From a virus, in the IMG/VR virus record IMGVR_UViG_3300021425_000143, positions 1 to 27,715 of that record: a stretch of DNA of 27,715 bases; one strand, written 5' to 3'. Shown piece after piece: positions 1 through 21,923 of this stretch (its first letter is position 1; each line of letters starts with the position of its first letter). The position numbers were made by a program, and so were the translations under genes. The notes beneath the pieces were generated by a model, which did no database searches, was not told the origin of the DNA, and was given only the letters and a program-made list of their open reading frames with translations.

Positions 1-1864
1 CACCATCTTCGTTTGCTTGGTACTTTTGTTTAAGCGCCTTGATTCCGTGATCTCTATATGAGCGTGTGTAATCAAGACCGTGCTTCTCTGCATCGATGAC
101 CACCATAGAGTGGCGCACCGCACGCGTTACTTCCTCAGTGCTAGCATTCTTAATCTGCATGTCAGTAATGAGGTTCGAGATGTTGCCCATCTCCGTTTGA
201 GTAAGCGTCTTACCCATCTCTTTCATTCCTGGCTGTCTAGCATACTCGCGTTTAGCGTCAAAGTTTTGCAACCGTTCAATGGGCTTGGCCGTTTGGATAT
301 TTTTCTTGCTGTTGGGGATGACAAGAACGGTGTCACCATCAAAGTCTGCACCAGAGAGAATATCTGCGACAGACGGATGGATGCCGACGGCGTCCTTAGC
401 ACCACCAAGCATGGCCTTAGCTTTGGGGTTGCGGTTGTTAACTACTAGTTGCGGGATCTCAAACTTACCGCCATGAGGATATCTTACTAGGGCAACGACT
501 TCGCCGTTCTGATAGTTTGGTGCATAGATTTCTCCAGGGTTGCTGTCTGGTGTGGGCAACAACACTTGCCACCTTTGGCGAGGAAGAGCATGTGCTTTAA
601 GACTCACCGCTTGCGCGTCAAGCGTACGAGCGTAGTCCTCAAGGAGGGCCTTCTTAACAGTCGGATTGGTAAGCTCTAAAATATCTTTTAGCTCATTGTG
701 TCGACTTTCAAAGGCCATGTCTAGTTGTTGCTTAGCTAGCTTCGGTGGTTGTTTGGATAGAACCTGTGAAGCAATCGAGTTGCTCCAACCACCCCAGTCG
801 CCTTCCTCGTTTACGAGGTTTACGGCAGAAGTGACTTCTCTTGTCCCATCAGCGTTGGTTTTAAATATCTGTCTCTTGATCTGAGTACCAAAGGGATTGT
901 CGGCATCATCCTTCAACGGTTTTAAAGTATCAAGCTTGTCTGGCGCTTGCTCTTTGGTCTTGTTTGTGTTGAAGAGAATATCTGTGCCTTCTGGAAGACC
1001 GTCTTTGTAGATAGCCATACCCTTGAGGTAGTGACCAGGACCAACCTGAATTCGAACTTGCGCATAAGACTTTCCGCCCAATGACAGATCGTCAACGCCT
1101 GGTCGAATGTACATAACGCCATCAGCGTCAGCGCCGCCATCTTCTGCGTAATTGACACCAACACGCGATGGGTCAACAGCCTTTGGTGGTAACATCCCTA
1201 AAAATGTTTCACCTAAGTCTTCGCTGGCAACGTTGATCGTACGCACTTGGTCGTTTTTGACTGCTGTAAGTACGTCGCCAAAGGTCGTGTCTGGTTGGGA
1301 CAATACTTTCATCTTAGTGAATTTGTCTCCAGCATTCTTGACCTTTGGGTTGCTTACAACAAAACCCTCATCCTTTAGGATGCTGACTGCAGCACTAAGC
1401 TTTTGATCGCTAACCCCCATGTAGTTAGAAGCACCACGACCAATATCTAGGAAGCCTTTTGAGTAAACTTCCATACGTAGGGTGTCAACGGTGTTCTTCA
1501 AGGTGCTTTGTGTGTACTTGTCGGGATCCTTTAAGTAATTACGAACAGTAGCCTCCGGAACACCCATGCGATTTGCAATGGCATTCGTGGACATACCCTT
1601 CGATTTATACTTGACGGCTTCGCCGACTGTAGCTGCTCTATCTTCTGCGATAGCAACAGTCTTGGTTTCACGGAGTTGTCCGACAGTCATTCCGACGCCT
1701 TGGGCAATATCTTTCTCCGAGAGACCCTGATTCTTCATGTTTTGCACGTAGTCTAAGAAGCTTTTGCTTCGTTGAGGAACGTTACCGCCCGAGCCCCAAG
1801 GGTATCGGCCGGACAACCTCAAGATTCCGTAATGTGATAGGTAGTCGGATTCTTCCATAATCAT
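1..1864 (-). CDS. Two-barrel (DFDGD-type) RNA polymerase-like protein with N-terminal helix-turn-helix segments, 3' part outside window
   Basis: An uninterrupted minus-strand frame runs from a start at 1864 (ATG-ATT-ATG; a second ATG lies at 1858) to the window edge, giving about 621 codons without a stop. AGGAGGG at 1883-1877 is the ribosome site and favours the 1864 start. The first ~110 residues hold two helix-turn-helix-like stretches (LSEKDIAQGVGMTVGQLR and STNAIANRMGVPEATVRNYL). Residues ~430-450 contain LPRQRWQVLLP. Residues ~507-511 are DFDGD inside ILSGADFDGDTVLVIPN, preceded by GIHPSV, much like the HP...NADFDGD context of bacterial beta-prime. Further on, MVVIDAEKHG resembles the VD-x-x-K-x-G segment of single-chain QDE-1/YonO-type polymerases. 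Known of the family: the DxDGD aspartates bind the catalytic magnesium. Inferred: a phage transcriptase for some gene class, or a virion-delivered one. The 3' end is missing, so length and completeness are unknown. Confidence 0.7.
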   Translation of the reverse strand, partial: MIMEESDYLSHYGILRLSGRYPWGSGGNVPQRSKSFLDYVQNMKNQGLSEKDIAQGVGMTVGQLRETKTVAIAEDRAATVGEAVKYKSKGMSTNAIANRMGVPEATVRNYLKDPDKYTQSTLKNTVDTLRMEVYSKGFLDIGRGASNYMGVSDQKLSAAVSILKDEGFVVSNPKVKNAGDKFTKMKVLSQPDTTFGDVLTAVKNDQVRTINVASEDLGETFLGMLPPKAVDPSRVGVNYAEDGGADADGVMYIRPGVDDLSLGGKSYAQVRIQVGPGHYLKGMAIYKDGLPEGTDILFNTNKTKEQAPDKLDTLKPLKDDADNPFGTQIKRQIFKTNADGTREVTSAVNLVNEEGDWGGWSNSIASQVLSKQPPKLAKQQLDMAFESRHNELKDILELTNPTVKKALLEDYARTLDAQAVSLKAHALPRQRWQVLLPTPDSNPGEIYAPNYQNGEVVALVRYPHGGKFEIPQLVVNNRNPKAKAMLGGAKDAVGIHPSVADILSGADFDGDTVLVIPNSKKNIQTAKPIERLQNFDAKREYARQPGMKEMGKTLTQTEMGNISNLITDMQIKNASTEEVTRAVRHSMVVIDAEKHGLDYTRSYRDHGIKALKQKYQANEDG

Positions 1865-1881: not shown

Positions 1882-2370
1882 CTATGTAAACCTAACGCTA
1901 ACTCCTGCTACATCTTTATTTGTTTTAATTGCACGCGATAGTTGTTTTGGGGAAATATCTAGTCGCATGGCACAGCGGTTGATGCTATCAAAGCGTTCAC
2001 CGGTTTGTATAATGCGGACAGGTTTTGCGTTAGAAAGCAGTCTACCTCTTGTGTACGCCAACTTAATATTTTCGCTAGCACTAACGAGCCGCAAGTTCCA
2101 TATAAAGTTGTGTGACTTAACACTGTTAATGTGGTCGACTTGCTTGTCCGAAATATCTTCCTCAAAGAAAGCCTCTGCAACAAGTCGGTGAACTAAGTAG
2201 GATGTTCCTTGACCCCTATTCCAAAGTTGGACTCTCAAATATCCGGTTCCTATAATGCTTGGATTTAGCGTTGCACCAGACTTGCGATTCCTAACTCTAC
2301 CATAGTTTGATACAGCATAATTTGGGTAGTCCCTAACAGGCGCCCAAACCTCCTGCATGTTGTTACTCAT
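1882..2370 (-). CDS. HNH homing endonuclease with NUMOD4 domain
   Basis: The 162-residue protein begins with a NUMOD4-type DNA-binding motif (W-x2-V-x-DYPNYAVSNYGRVRN, residues ~8-29). An HNH nuclease core follows: VHRLVAEAFF at ~60-70, then VDHINSVKSHN and NLRLVSASEN at ~78-103. A C-terminal NUMOD1-like segment (GERFDSINRCAMRLDISPKQLSRAI) probably reads specific DNA. Such free-standing enzymes cut intron- or gene-free alleles and spread themselves. The start overlaps the stop of the upstream exonuclease gene by 4 bases (ATGA), and its own stop abuts the ribosome site of the polymerase-like gene downstream. Its position next to that gene suggests the RNA polymerase gene or the nuclease cluster as the homing target. 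The core histidine and asparagine residues are present, so it looks intact. Confidence 0.88.
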   Translation of the reverse strand: MSNNMQEVWAPVRDYPNYAVSNYGRVRNRKSGATLNPSIIGTGYLRVQLWNRGQGTSYLVHRLVAEAFFEEDISDKQVDHINSVKSHNFIWNLRLVSASENIKLAYTRGRLLSNAKPVRIIQTGERFDSINRCAMRLDISPKQLSRAIKTNKDVAGVSVRFT

Positions 2371-2927
2371 TCGCCTAGCTCGGTCTTAGCACTCTCGATA
2401 AGTTGGTCAAAATAAACAATTTTGTCCATGATTTCTGAGATTGCTTCGGGATAAGGTATGTGTTCTTGAATTTCGTCGCTCTGGTAGATACGCAACGAGA
2501 ACTCAATGTCAAACGGAAGGACTCCGTACTCGAGACAAAAGAGTGCTGCGTAGATTTCCAATTGTGTGAACGATGCTTTTGTGGTGCCAGTCTTTAGGTC
2601 GTGTATATGAAGTACTCCGTTCCTAAAGCTAAGTGCGTCAACGTGTCCAAAACAGTTGTCGCTGTAGTACAAAGGAATCTCACATTTCATCTTGTTGTCA
2701 ATTGCATCGTTGACATATAAGCTTAGTGTTGTCTGATCGTCCGGCAAGCGGACCCCAAGCTTAATGGCTTGTTCACAGAAGTCGTGTAGCTGCGTTCCCA
2801 GGCGTGCTGCGTTGTGTCTAGAATAACCAGACAACAATTTCTCGTCGTCGTAGTTAACCCAGTGGTACTTGGAGGGCGATAAGAATGCGTGCTTACCACC
2901 CAGATTCGAGCGTTCGTTGAAGATCAT
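2367..2927 (-). CDS. PD-(D/E)XK exonuclease, Cas4/RecB-like
   Basis: This 186-residue protein carries the ordered motifs of the PD-(D/E)XK nuclease fold: GTQLHDFCEQA (~44-54), a GHVDAL aspartate (~94), then LHIHDLKTGTTKAS (~107-120), giving the D-x-K pair, and TQLEIYAALFCLEYG (~121-135), matching the Q-x3-Y motif of RecB/Cas4 nucleases. The known role of such proteins in phages is 5' or 3' resection feeding recombination. No four-cysteine iron-sulfur cluster is visible, unlike classical Cas4. The start overlaps the upstream VRR-NUC gene by 35 bases, and no clear ribosome site is seen, so translation is probably coupled. It is followed by an overlapping HNH gene. Confidence 0.8.
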   Translation of the reverse strand: MIFNERSNLGGKHAFLSPSKYHWVNYDDEKLLSGYSRHNAARLGTQLHDFCEQAIKLGVRLPDDQTTLSLYVNDAIDNKMKCEIPLYYSDNCFGHVDALSFRNGVLHIHDLKTGTTKASFTQLEIYAALFCLEYGVLPFDIEFSLRIYQSDEIQEHIPYPEAISEIMDKIVYFDQLIESAKTELGE

Positions 2928-3189
2928 CTAAAACCGTACTTTCAATAGCTGGATAAATATACGAACACCAGGACATGCTGTCCAGAAGGTGTACATAGTA
3001 GTCTTGGTTCGGTTGATGCTTCGCTTGTTGGCTAGTCTTAACTTCAAGCATGGCCCACCGTTCGTTGAATAGAATCAACAAGTCGGGAATACCCTGCAAA
3101 TATCCAGAGTCATTCTTAAGGACCACACAGCCCGGGAACATGAGCTTGAGGCGTTTAATCAATTGTGCTTGATAGGCTGCTTCGCGCAT
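2893..3189 (-). CDS. VRR-NUC domain nuclease
   Basis: The 98-residue product is close to the size of a minimal VRR-NUC domain. It begins with an acidic/glutamine helix (EAAYQAQLIKRLK). KNDSGYLQGIPDLLILF follows, the characteristic G-x-PDL strand, then WAMLEVKTSQQAK, which supplies the E-x-K pair. The family is a branch of the PD-(D/E)XK fold that cuts branched DNA such as Holliday junctions or flaps. The start has a good GAGGAG site. It is the first gene after a hairpin-plus-T-run and leads a nuclease trio (VRR-NUC, Cas4-like, HNH). A role in resolving replication or packaging intermediates is inferred. Confidence 0.82.
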   Translation of the reverse strand: MREAAYQAQLIKRLKLMFPGCVVLKNDSGYLQGIPDLLILFNERWAMLEVKTSQQAKHQPNQDYYVHLLDSMSWCSYIYPAIESTVLDDLQRTLESGW

Positions 3190-3212
3190 GTTTCTCCTCT
3201 CGGAATGATAGT

Positions 3213-3252
3213 CAAAAAATATAAGGGAAGCAGTGCATAAATGCTGCTCCCC
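3213..3252 (-). terminator. Hairpin followed by T-rich tract
   Basis: Read on the minus strand, GGGAGCAG pairs with CTGCTTCCC (one bulged base) around a ten-base loop, followed by TTATATTTTTT. This is the form of an intrinsic terminator for the gene ending at 3297. A TATAAT hexamer lies directly upstream at 3261-3256, so the hairpin could instead be an attenuator at the start of the next transcript. Confidence 0.65.
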
Positions 3253-3255
3253 CCT

Positions 3256-3261
3256 ATTATA
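3256..3261 (-). promoter_or_regulatory. Possible -10 box upstream of the nuclease genes
   Basis: The minus strand reads CTTATAATAG here, a perfect TATAAT hexamer in an AT-rich gap before the VRR-NUC gene. No convincing -35 hexamer is visible at 16-18 bases. A start about 7 bases downstream would place the terminator-like hairpin at the very 5' end of the transcript. Confidence 0.35.
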
Positions 3262-3296
3262 AGCGATGTATACCGTACGATACTATACTATTATTG

Positions 3297-3902: not shown

Positions 3903-4308
3903 GTGTCTCCTTTTTGTGCACTTTTTAATTGTCCCATAAAATTGATCTCGATTTTGACTTGATTGGCCATTTGGCCACCTAATTTCAAAAACTTTTTATT
4001 CTCTACAGATTCTGTGTATTCTCTATTATTTGTAGAAAGTTTTTAAAAAAGGGGTCAAAAGTGGCCAAATTGAAGAATTCCTATATGTACCAAGGGAATT
4101 CCGTGGCCACTTTTGTTTCAGAATTGGCCACTTTTACAAGTTTGTATGGGACAATTGGCCTTTTTGGGCACTTTTTGACCCTTTTTACAATTGTCCCATA
4201 ATTATGGGACATTTAGGATTTGGGTGCTTTTTGACCAATTTGGACACTTTTTGGCCACTTTTGGCCACCAAAAACCAATTGTCCCATACAATAACATACT
4301 ATTTTTCG
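3903..4308. repeat. 405-base non-coding block with iteron-like repeats (candidate origin or control region)
   Basis: No supported gene lies here. Several short elements recur. GTCCCATA occurs at 3931, 4193 and 4281, and inverted at 4145 and 4203. Units of the form GGCCACTTTT or GCACTTTTT occur many times (about 3918, 4106, 4127, 4168, 4243, 4254), with an inverted form near 4050. GAATTCC and GGAATTC form arms of an inverted repeat at 4075-4101. The block is AT-rich with G/C-run islands and contains no copy of the AATAT pentamer that is frequent elsewhere. Dense direct and inverted iterons in the largest intergenic gap, beside a helicase gene, suggest a replication origin or a multi-site operator. 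The function is inferred only. Confidence 0.7.
4193..4210. repeat. 18-base perfect palindrome
   Basis: GTCCCATAATTATGGGAC reads identically on both strands and joins two of the five GTCCCATA copies of the block head to head. This is the typical shape of a dimeric protein's binding site, for example an initiator or repressor. Confidence 0.75.
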
Positions 4309-9677: not shown

Positions 9678-9712
9678 TGTTTCTCCTGTGTAATGGTTTA
9701 TGTGAAGGACCG

Positions 9713-9795
9713 TCCCCCGGGTAGGAATCGAACCTACCTAGCCGTACGGCGTCTGGTTTACAGCCAGATTCTGGTCCCAGCCAGCACCGAGGGGG
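9713..9795 (-). tRNA. tRNA-Tyr (anticodon GTA), class II
   Basis: On the minus strand an anticodon arm TCTGG-CTGTAAA-CCAGA gives anticodon GTA (Tyr). GCC-GTAC-GGC forms a long variable arm, as bacterial tRNA-Tyr has. The T arm GTAGG-TTCGATT-CCTAC is canonical. The 3' acceptor strand is CCGGGGG with discriminator A, and CCA is not encoded. The 5' strand CCCCCTC pairs for five bases and then mismatches twice, and the D arm is hard to draw canonically, with one extra base. The 5' half is therefore atypical and the exact ends may shift by a base or two. Confidence 0.78.
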
Positions 9796-10596: not shown

Positions 10597-10797
10597 TTAA
10601 ATCTCGCTGAATGTAATCTCGTCAAGGTTCGGTTTGATACTATACTCGGAACGACGGTTGATCAGTTTTCCAACGGCGTATCCTCCAGCATAGCAAGCTG
10701 CGAAATATGCTGCAACAGCAATTCCGAAACCAACTTTGGTTTTGGTGGATACTTCCTTAGGAACAACGATCGAGTCAATAGTGAGTTCTGTGTCCAT
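10597..10797 (-). CDS. Small membrane protein
   Basis: The frame is open further upstream, but the ATG at 10797 with an AAGGA site is the best start, giving 66 residues. It has a polar N-terminus, then a glycine/alanine-rich transmembrane segment (VGFGIAVAAYFAACYAGGYAVG) broken only by small residues, and a basic-then-acidic tail. The A-x-Y...G-x2-IG-R/K-x-L pattern resembles the membrane segment of the gene at 21082. Both follow a type I upstream element. The terminator lies directly downstream. Function unknown. Confidence 0.7.
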   Translation of the reverse strand: MDTELTIDSIVVPKEVSTKTKVGFGIAVAAYFAACYAGGYAVGKLINRRSEYSIKPNLDEITFSEI

Positions 10798-10842
10798 AGT
10801 CTGGTCCTTAAAAATAAGTATTATTCTAGCGGGGTATTTCCC

Positions 10843-10873
10843 CTCCGTTATAACATGTGTATGCGTTGCGAAC
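10843..10873 (-). promoter_or_regulatory. Upstream element type I, copy A
   Basis: The minus strand reads TTCGCAA, thirteen bases, then TATAACGGAG. Copies with identical spacing lie at 21427-21456 and 21892-21923. TGT before TATAAC gives an extended -10 look, but no TTGACA lies at the right distance. About 50 bases separate it from the ATG at 10797. It is probably a promoter, possibly for a non-host polymerase. Confidence 0.62.
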
Positions 10874-21389: not shown

Positions 21390-21426
21390 AGAGCGGGCTG
21401 TTGTTTAAAACATTTAGGTTTCCCTC

Positions 21427-21456
21427 TCCGTTATAAGACGTGTTTCTTTTGCGAAC
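21427..21456 (-). promoter_or_regulatory. Upstream element type I, copy B
   Basis: The minus strand reads TTCGCAA, thirteen bases, then TATAACGGAGAGGG. The middle differs from copies A and C, so conservation is concentrated in the two outer blocks, as in a promoter. It lies about 100 bases before the ATG at 21327. Confidence 0.62.
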
Positions 21457-21575: not shown

Positions 21576-21881
21576 TTACTTCAAATCCAATTCTGGTTTC
21601 TTAACGAAGTTGAAACCCTTAGACGTGATTACGTTGGTGTGCTCGTAGCCAACAACGATTAGAATGCCGAGGAGCGAAACGCTTGCAGATAGGATTGCAT
21701 CGGATGAAAGTTTGCGACGCTTTTGACCATTGTCAATTGCATCGAACTTTTCGATGTGTTCCAGAATCTTAGCGAATTCTTCGGAATCGGTTTCGTGTTG
21801 TTCTAATGAGACCAAGCAACGATCGATCTGATCGTCATATCGGGTGTCTTCTTCTTTACGTGAAAACGGATTACTGAACAT
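21576..21881 (-). CDS. Conserved phage single-pass membrane protein
   Basis: The 101-residue protein has a charged N-terminal half with acid-rich helices (DDQIDRCLVSLEQHETDSEE). A transmembrane segment follows at ~67-81 (SVSLLGILIVVGYEH), then NVITSKGFNFVKKP. The GYE-x-x-N/H-VITSKA/G-x-x-FV ending is a pattern I recall from a common phage family of unknown function. GGAGG of the type I element lies 9 bases before the ATG, so the element and the ribosome site overlap. Confidence 0.72.
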   Translation of the reverse strand: MFSNPFSRKEEDTRYDDQIDRCLVSLEQHETDSEEFAKILEHIEKFDAIDNGQKRRKLSSDAILSASVSLLGILIVVGYEHTNVITSKGFNFVKKPELDLK

Positions 21882-21891
21882 TGTAATATAC

Positions 21892-21923
21892 CTCCGTTAT
21901 AACACGTGTATACGTTGCGAAAG
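21892..21923 (-). promoter_or_regulatory. Upstream element type I, copy C
   Basis: The minus strand reads TTCGCAA, thirteen bases, then TATAACGGAGG, almost identical to copy A. TATAAC is so close to the ATG at 21881 that a start 7 bases downstream would give a nearly leaderless transcript. Confidence 0.62.

Follow-up and report, generated by a model that had tools for sequence, protein, structure and literature searches.

A predicted single-chain two-barrel RNA polymerase of phages, with helix-turn-helix modules on the chain and a promoter-like element that it probably reads

Two-barrel enzymes include all cellular RNA polymerases, and how the single-chain members encoded by phages locate their start sites without a sigma factor is the question addressed here. 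QDE-1, of the eukaryotic RNA-dependent RNA polymerases (PF05183), is an RNA-interference enzyme, and we know of no N-terminal helix-turn-helix (HTH) segments in it. YonO of the Firmicutes phage SPbeta of Bacillus (PHROG 8308), a single-chain two-barrel enzyme with a DxDGD triad, serves the late genes, and in 2017 neither its promoter nor any helper factor was known (PMC5467207). Thermus phage P23-45 has two single-chain RNA polymerases with promoter motifs of their own, of which gp64 is a non-virion protein and gp96 is a virion protein fused to the tape measure (PMC10770324). As summarised in PMC7886860, gp66 of the crAss-like phage phi14:2 is a virion RNA polymerase, also single-chain and two-barrel, which is injected with the DNA and transcribes early genes.

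The window, that is, the whole stretch of viral DNA analysed here (27,715 nucleotides of IMG/VR record IMGVR_UViG_3300021425_000143), ends within a gene that appears to belong to this group. A partial open reading frame on the minus strand begins with an ATG at position 1864 and is still open at position 2, the contig end, after 621 residues. It corresponds to about the first two thirds of a predicted phage RNA polymerase; the ~250-300 residues missing at the 3' end were read in relatives, which are ~870-1030 residues long in full and usually carry another HTH at the C-terminus. The PHROG 4291 profile matches residues 2-620 (E 1.7e-253), and the protein thus belongs with the PHROG 4291 members of actinophages and of lactococcal phages 1706 and P078, a family annotated by similarity only. 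The peptides on which the original prediction of a polymerase was built, SGADFDGDTVLVIPN, HPSV and VIDAEKHG, were all found in the reading frame, with DFDGD at 332-346. The gene contains the following features.

2..1864, minus strand: N-terminal 621 residues of a predicted single-chain two-barrel RNA polymerase (PHROG 4291), cut by the contig end.
1655..1759, minus strand: HTH1, residues ~36-70 (helices 36-45, 50-56 and 61-88 in the model; phrog_664 and phrog_1033; alignment).
1526..1618, minus strand: HTH2, residues ~83-113, recognition helix PEATVRN (Sigma70_r4_2, HTH_23, PHROG HTH families, model).
1295..1453, minus strand: third, winged-helix-like segment, residues ~138-190 (model secondary structure).
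953..1135, minus strand: putative barrel with basic residues (DPBB-B-like), YAQVRIQVGPGHYLKGMAIYKD, with invariant R271 and K281 (alignment).
314..532, minus strand: predicted catalytic barrel (DPBB-A-like), R.PHGG.FEIP..VNN...GI...VA..LSGADFDGD (alignment, model, fold match).
332..346, minus strand: DFDGD metal-binding triad, residues 507-511 (D507-D511), invariant in 53 of 53 relatives.
80..211, minus strand: post-barrel helical segment, MG.VSNLITDM...AVRHSMVVID.EKH, in the bridge-helix position by its order.

The fold was addressed by structure prediction because a search of the PDB by sequence alone returned only HTH-like and designed helical chains and no polymerase. With an AlphaFold model of the window chain (pLDDT 82.9, pTM 0.70), the best 26 PDB matches in Foldseek were all two-barrel RNA polymerases (E 3.6e-11 to 8.1e-5, probability 0.99-1.00). 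QDE-1 was at the top (E 3.6e-11), together with P23-45 gp64 (E 1.1e-8) and P74-26 gp62 (~1e-8); plant RDR2 and P23-45 gp96 (E 1.6e-5) were also matched, then bacterial beta' at ~1e-3, and a separate model of a full-length relative led to the same fold families. The original prediction had assigned the protein to the two-barrel, single-chain type and proposed a structural comparison with YonO, QDE-1 and beta/beta-prime types, and the comparison bears that assignment out. The whole-chain TM-scores are low (0.35-0.41); therefore, the two-barrel claim is based on fold-level matches and the active site, and not on close superposition. Besides the triad, R271, K281 and K315, candidate basic residues of the other barrel, are invariant among the 53 relatives, and so are the key residues of the YAQVR...KGMA segment. 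The order of the segments and the fold match suggest that 953..1135 corresponds to DPBB-B. The Pfam RdRP profile (PF05183) matches the window protein near the triad with 22.5 bits (E 5.4e-5), and the phage 1706 homologue with 22.1 bits, both under the cut-off of 23.8, while no T7-type RNA polymerase domain was detected in the window protein by Pfam up to E 1. The predicted structure and the conserved active site support the assignment of the window protein to the single-chain two-barrel RNA polymerases.

With YonO the relation is distant. The YonO PHROG matches residues 444-594 of the window protein weakly (E 1.4e-4), and hhalign gave no significant result either against the single YonO sequence or against a YonO alignment (probability 1.5%); yet in the latter case the catalytic triad and the following helix are in register. 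Both families line up after the triad in G.[IV]SN.IT and [IV]D..K, so that the post-barrel segment has a counterpart in the YonO family (G.ISNNIT ... IDYAK). YonO belongs to another PHROG and has no Pfam HTH match, whereas the window family has HTHs on the chain and a defined element before early genes and its own operon. By these sequence comparisons, the window protein is a relative of YonO and not a member of its family. The P23-45 enzymes are among the top fold matches, but no sequence relation to them was found; gp64 has ~600 aa, in contrast to a family with HTHs at both ends, and the window family is encoded by a separate gene, not by a tape-measure fusion as gp96 is. The phi14:2 enzyme comes from a different phage group, its chain is far larger, and it is absent among the fold matches listed; injection would be a shared trait only if orf75 of phage 1706 is really in virions.

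Approximately 250 phage records match the window protein over at least 80% of its length (tblastn), and among the matches listed the coverage is 99-100% and the identity below 60%, mostly ~50%. The carriers are phages of Arthrobacter, Gordonia, Streptomyces, Lactococcus, Curtobacterium, Rhodococcus, Microbacterium and Faecalibacterium, phages of the human oral cavity, and others. The family is also present on 75 IMG/VR contigs and in many genomes or prophages of Firmicutes (Lachnospiraceae, Ruminococcus torques, Hungatella, Faecalibacterium, Blautia). Its members are deposited as 'helix-turn-helix DNA-binding domain protein', as 'RNA-dependent RNA polymerase' or as hypothetical. The PHROG 4291 gene probably encodes the phage's own RNA-making enzyme and would then be wrongly labelled in hundreds of phage genomes.

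Two HTH segments had been proposed to precede the core, and both are confirmed: PHROG HTH families match residues 39-114, Pfam Sigma70_r4_2 matches residues 89-112, and the model has helices at 36-45/50-56 and 93-100/104-112. The recognition helix of HTH2 has the family consensus ESSVR and is nearly invariant as [ED]SSVR. The segment 138-190 (winged-helix-like around 145-190 in the model) may represent a winged HTH, as the modelled secondary structure suggests. Of the proteins encoded by genes common to six divergent genomes, no other than the polymerase has recognised HTHs. In Arthrobacter phage Qui, a separate HTH protein of 95 aa (BFVD A0A5B8WIH5) resembles a portion of the polymerase model (TM 0.74 on the target, 35% identity) and might be a reader that has become detached, or else a regulator in competition for the same promoters.

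Repeats in six genomes are one motif, TCGC-N5-TTACA-N5-TATAATGA, in which the blocks are exactly 10 bp apart. At least 120 IMG/VR stretches have this exact pattern, versus none at N7/N7 spacing, and positions outside the search pattern are informative as well (211 sites). In the same 211 sites there is no signal of a TTGACA -35 box at 17 +/- 1 bp before the -10 box, as expected of a sigma-70/sigma-A promoter. In the training DNA (1.95 Mb) a PWM found ~795 sites, where ~3 are expected by chance, and in 80 genome-contig loci never in training it found 157 sense sites and one antisense site, with one in shuffled DNA. When trained without the window, it located four sites in the window, all on the minus strand (17.8-26.7 bits); no score on the plus strand was above -1.4 bits, and 300 shuffled versions of the window together gave a single site of at least 13 bits. 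One repeat family (D1) has three copies in the window, and the non-host-like upstream elements of the original prediction are real. The four sites are as follows.

3250..3281, minus strand: class II element, ATCGTACGGTATACATCGCTTATAATAGGGGG (24.0 bits), upstream of the polymerase operon.
10841..10872, minus strand: class I element, TTCGCAACGCATACACATGTTATAACGGAGGG (17.8 bits); the start codon that follows is the ATG at 10797.
21424..21455, minus strand: class I element, TTCGCAAAAGAAACACGTCTTATAACGGAGAG (26.7 bits).
21890..21921, minus strand: class I element, TTCGCAACGTATACACGTGTTATAACGGAGGT (22.8 bits); the start codon that follows is the ATG at 21881.

The sites lie on the coding strand, a short distance before small genes that follow the tail module. 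Of the 144 loci whose upstream sequence is long enough, 117 have a class II site before the VRR-Nuc/exonuclease/polymerase operon, ~0.6-1.5 kb ahead of the polymerase gene. All class I sites of two Streptomyces phages have a nearly unchanging GAGACCCC behind them, though the -10-like box varies, and the initially transcribed sequence may therefore belong to the signal. In the saliva phage D_HF5_2C, a promoter-like element stands directly before a tRNA-like sequence (~19851).

The genes of the compared genomes are on one strand and in a largely conserved order: terminase, structural genes, (lysis), small genes, primase-polymerase, helicase, VRR-Nuc, Cas4-like exonuclease, RNA polymerase, a small open reading frame of PHROG 4303, and the genome end. 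The corresponding features of the window, with a tRNA gene, are these.

2893..3189, minus strand: VRR-Nuc gene, first of the polymerase operon (homologue of annotated VRR-Nuc genes).
2367..2927, minus strand: Cas4/RecB-like exonuclease gene of the polymerase operon (homologue of annotated exonucleases).
1882..2370, minus strand: NUMOD4/HNH (homing-type) endonuclease gene, between the exonuclease and polymerase genes.
9712-9793, minus strand: tRNA-Tyr(gta) gene.

In RosaAsantewaa and Mudcat the exonuclease and polymerase genes abut, unlike those of the window with the HNH gene between them. The PHROG 4303 frame, ~86 aa and conserved 3' of the polymerase in the genomes compared (e.g. 42276-42545 in a Streptomyces phage), encodes a candidate partner of the polymerase. 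The 406-bp intergenic stretch 3903-4308 of the window, from the helicase to the next gene, contains many direct and inverted AATTGTCCCATA and GGCCAAAAGTG-like units, an arrangement reminiscent of a replication origin or of an operator with multiple sites. The leader immediately behind the class II element (3200-3250, minus strand) includes a potential GGGAGCAG...CTGCTTCCC hairpin and then a T-rich stretch; it may function as an attenuator, or form a hairpin at the 5' end of the transcript of the polymerase operon.

Element and gene occur together. Among motif contigs of at least 30 kb, 33 of 41 have a strong PHROG 4291 match and one more has a weak match, while control contigs of the same minimum length, picked by TTGACA-N17-TATAATGA, have a strong match in none of 27 and one weak partial match. 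The seven motif contigs without the gene, together with the one with the weak match, are 31.8-46.5 kb long, and four of these eight have the primase-polymerase; being short, with the primase-polymerase in half of them, they are taken as fragments and not as counter-examples. The primase-polymerase itself is found in 252 records over 80% of its length, nearly the same count as the polymerase. Since gene and element are co-inherited in one phage lineage, the linkage alone is weak evidence, which points to a shared system and not to the reader.

The reader is better approached through the differences between phages. Lactococcus phages 1706 and P078 infect the same host, L. lactis, but 1706 (twelve sites, found out of sample with a relaxed threshold) has TATAGT in 11 of 12 sites versus TATAAT in 10 of 10 in P078. 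In P078, HTH2 reads SPGSVT, and the ten sites are without TCGC altogether. From this comparison the idea was drawn that Glu/Arg of HTH2 is linked to the TCGC block, and it was then followed through all loci, their sites being located with a PWM that ignores that block. The HTH2 Arg is absent in nine alignment tips; two of them are truncated, and the others represent five independent losses. None of the five lineages has a site with the CG core of TCGC, and the other blocks are mostly kept. At anchored sites, CG is present in 103 of the 121 loci that keep the HTH2 Arg and in none of the six that lack it (Fisher p 2.6e-5, a value that ignores kinship), and the remaining 18 of the 121 retain the Arg without CG. 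As the idea came from one lineage, only the other four are a fresh test, for which the chance is ~0.15^4, assuming the 18/121 rate of CG absence at Arg-keeping loci. When mutual information between all polymerase columns and promoter positions was scanned without a prior choice, the clade structure governed the outcome and HTH2 was not singled out; the targeted Arg/CG test was relied on instead. Contact of a recognition-helix Arg with guanine is standard HTH chemistry. The joint loss of Arg and CG in five lineages suggests that the polymerase itself probably reads the element, in agreement with the earlier proposal that promoter recognition is carried on the same chain. The proposal of a private transcription system likewise gains support from a group-wide element whose spacing is unlike that of host sigma-70/sigma-A promoters.

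The family as a PHROG and the two-barrel superfamily are already known. Apparently undescribed, by contrast, are the promoter element, how widely it is spread, and the way it covaries with the polymerase HTH: in the main texts of the open-access papers searched, no description of the element or of the function of the PHROG 4291 family was found. Chaban et al. place 23 two-barrel families in supplementary data, and an earlier catalogue entry for this family may be among them.

An alternative reader is the host RNA polymerase with a phage activator, for which the T4 MotA/AsiA middle promoters are a precedent; the phage polymerase would then be restricted, like YonO, to late genes, whose promoters have gone unrecognised. 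TATAAT, a perfect sigma-A -10 box, does occur in about half of the sites, neither the polymerase gene nor the ~9 kb of late genes downstream of it showed an element (nine loci), and YonO is a late polymerase (PMC5467207). However, a -35 box is absent and the block spacing is rigid at 10 bp; the -11 A is replaced by T in 46% of class II sites (a mixed set), and the boxes are TTAAAT-like in most sites of RosaAsantewaa and TTTTAT in many Firmicutes prophages. The six genomes compared have no second protein with a recognised HTH in common. The box differences within one host species, the lack of a -35 box with the rigid spacing, and the covariation of HTH2 with TCGC favour the phage polymerase over host sigma-A, and we regard the activator scheme as unlikely.

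The nature of the enzyme could also be read differently. PHROGs and RefSeq label it as an RNA-dependent RNA polymerase, in keeping with QDE-1 and plant RDR2 among its closest folds and with the sub-threshold Pfam RdRP match. But the carriers are double-stranded DNA tailed phages, the related phage enzymes of SPbeta and P23-45 are DNA-dependent (PMC5467207, PMC10770324), and the chain has DNA-binding HTHs with a matching DNA element in the genomes, so that this label is almost certainly wrong. A virion structural protein with an inactive polymerase fold, as the deposited name of 1706 orf75 ('structural protein') might imply, is very improbable: the triad and the basic residues of the barrel are invariant across very diverse relatives, which argues for activity, and a location in the virion would equally fit an injected polymerase, as in crAss-like phages or P23-45 gp96.

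We therefore prefer, as a likely reading, a phage single-chain two-barrel DNA-dependent RNA polymerase that would start at blocks spaced by a helical turn, recognise them with its own HTHs and drive its own operon; the homology, the predicted fold, the invariant triad, the element with its strand and position bias, its linkage to the gene and the covariation are observed, and promoter activity, use by this polymerase and the way it starts are deduced from them. With promoter-reading HTH modules on the chain, a sigma factor would not be needed. The blocks, one helical turn apart, would be TCGC at ~-30, (T/A)(T/A)ACA at ~-20 and TATAATGA or a variant at ~-10. HTH2 would read TCGC from the major groove through its conserved Glu/Arg recognition helix, another HTH might, judging from the spacing, read the ACA block, and the A/T-rich block would be melted. 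Class I promoters would act on the small early genes that follow the tail/lysis module, and the class II promoter would drive the VRR-Nuc/exonuclease/polymerase operon, by which the enzyme would amplify its own expression. For the late genes, which are without the element, our guess is read-through from the class II promoter across joined genome ends; no terminators were detected between the polymerase and the late genes in 14 loci, but the finder detects few anywhere, and read-through therefore stays a guess.

Since the polymerase operon itself has the element, the first copies of the polymerase must come from elsewhere, and entry with the virion would remove this bootstrap problem. For orf75, the homologue in phage 1706, the deposited name is 'structural protein' though the gene is located among non-structural ones; the label is probably based on the virion mass spectrometry reported by Garneau et al. 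in 2008. With this hint, entry with the virion is conceivable, but the balance lies slightly against it. Two small proteins encoded among the early/replication genes of 1706, orf62 and orf71, are also deposited as structural proteins and may travel in the virion with orf75.

The present data bring together a likely promoter, the module that likely reads it and a series of natural covariants, in a system that occurs in phages of cultured hosts (Lactococcus, Streptomyces, Arthrobacter, Gordonia). The widest view is a tentative one, for which we claim a little less than an even chance: a row of HTHs would act as a built-in 'sigma', with a code conserved from phages of Streptomyces and Arthrobacter to those of Lactococcus and to Lachnospiraceae prophages, a virion-borne enzyme would transcribe the early genes and its own operon, and the covariation of HTH2 would show how such a code evolves. 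If true, the finding would call for a new label in ~250 phage records, where the gene is now an 'RNA-dependent RNA polymerase' or 'HTH protein', account for how the early genes are laid out in a large group of phages, and provide a new orthogonal polymerase-promoter pair for Gram-positive hosts.
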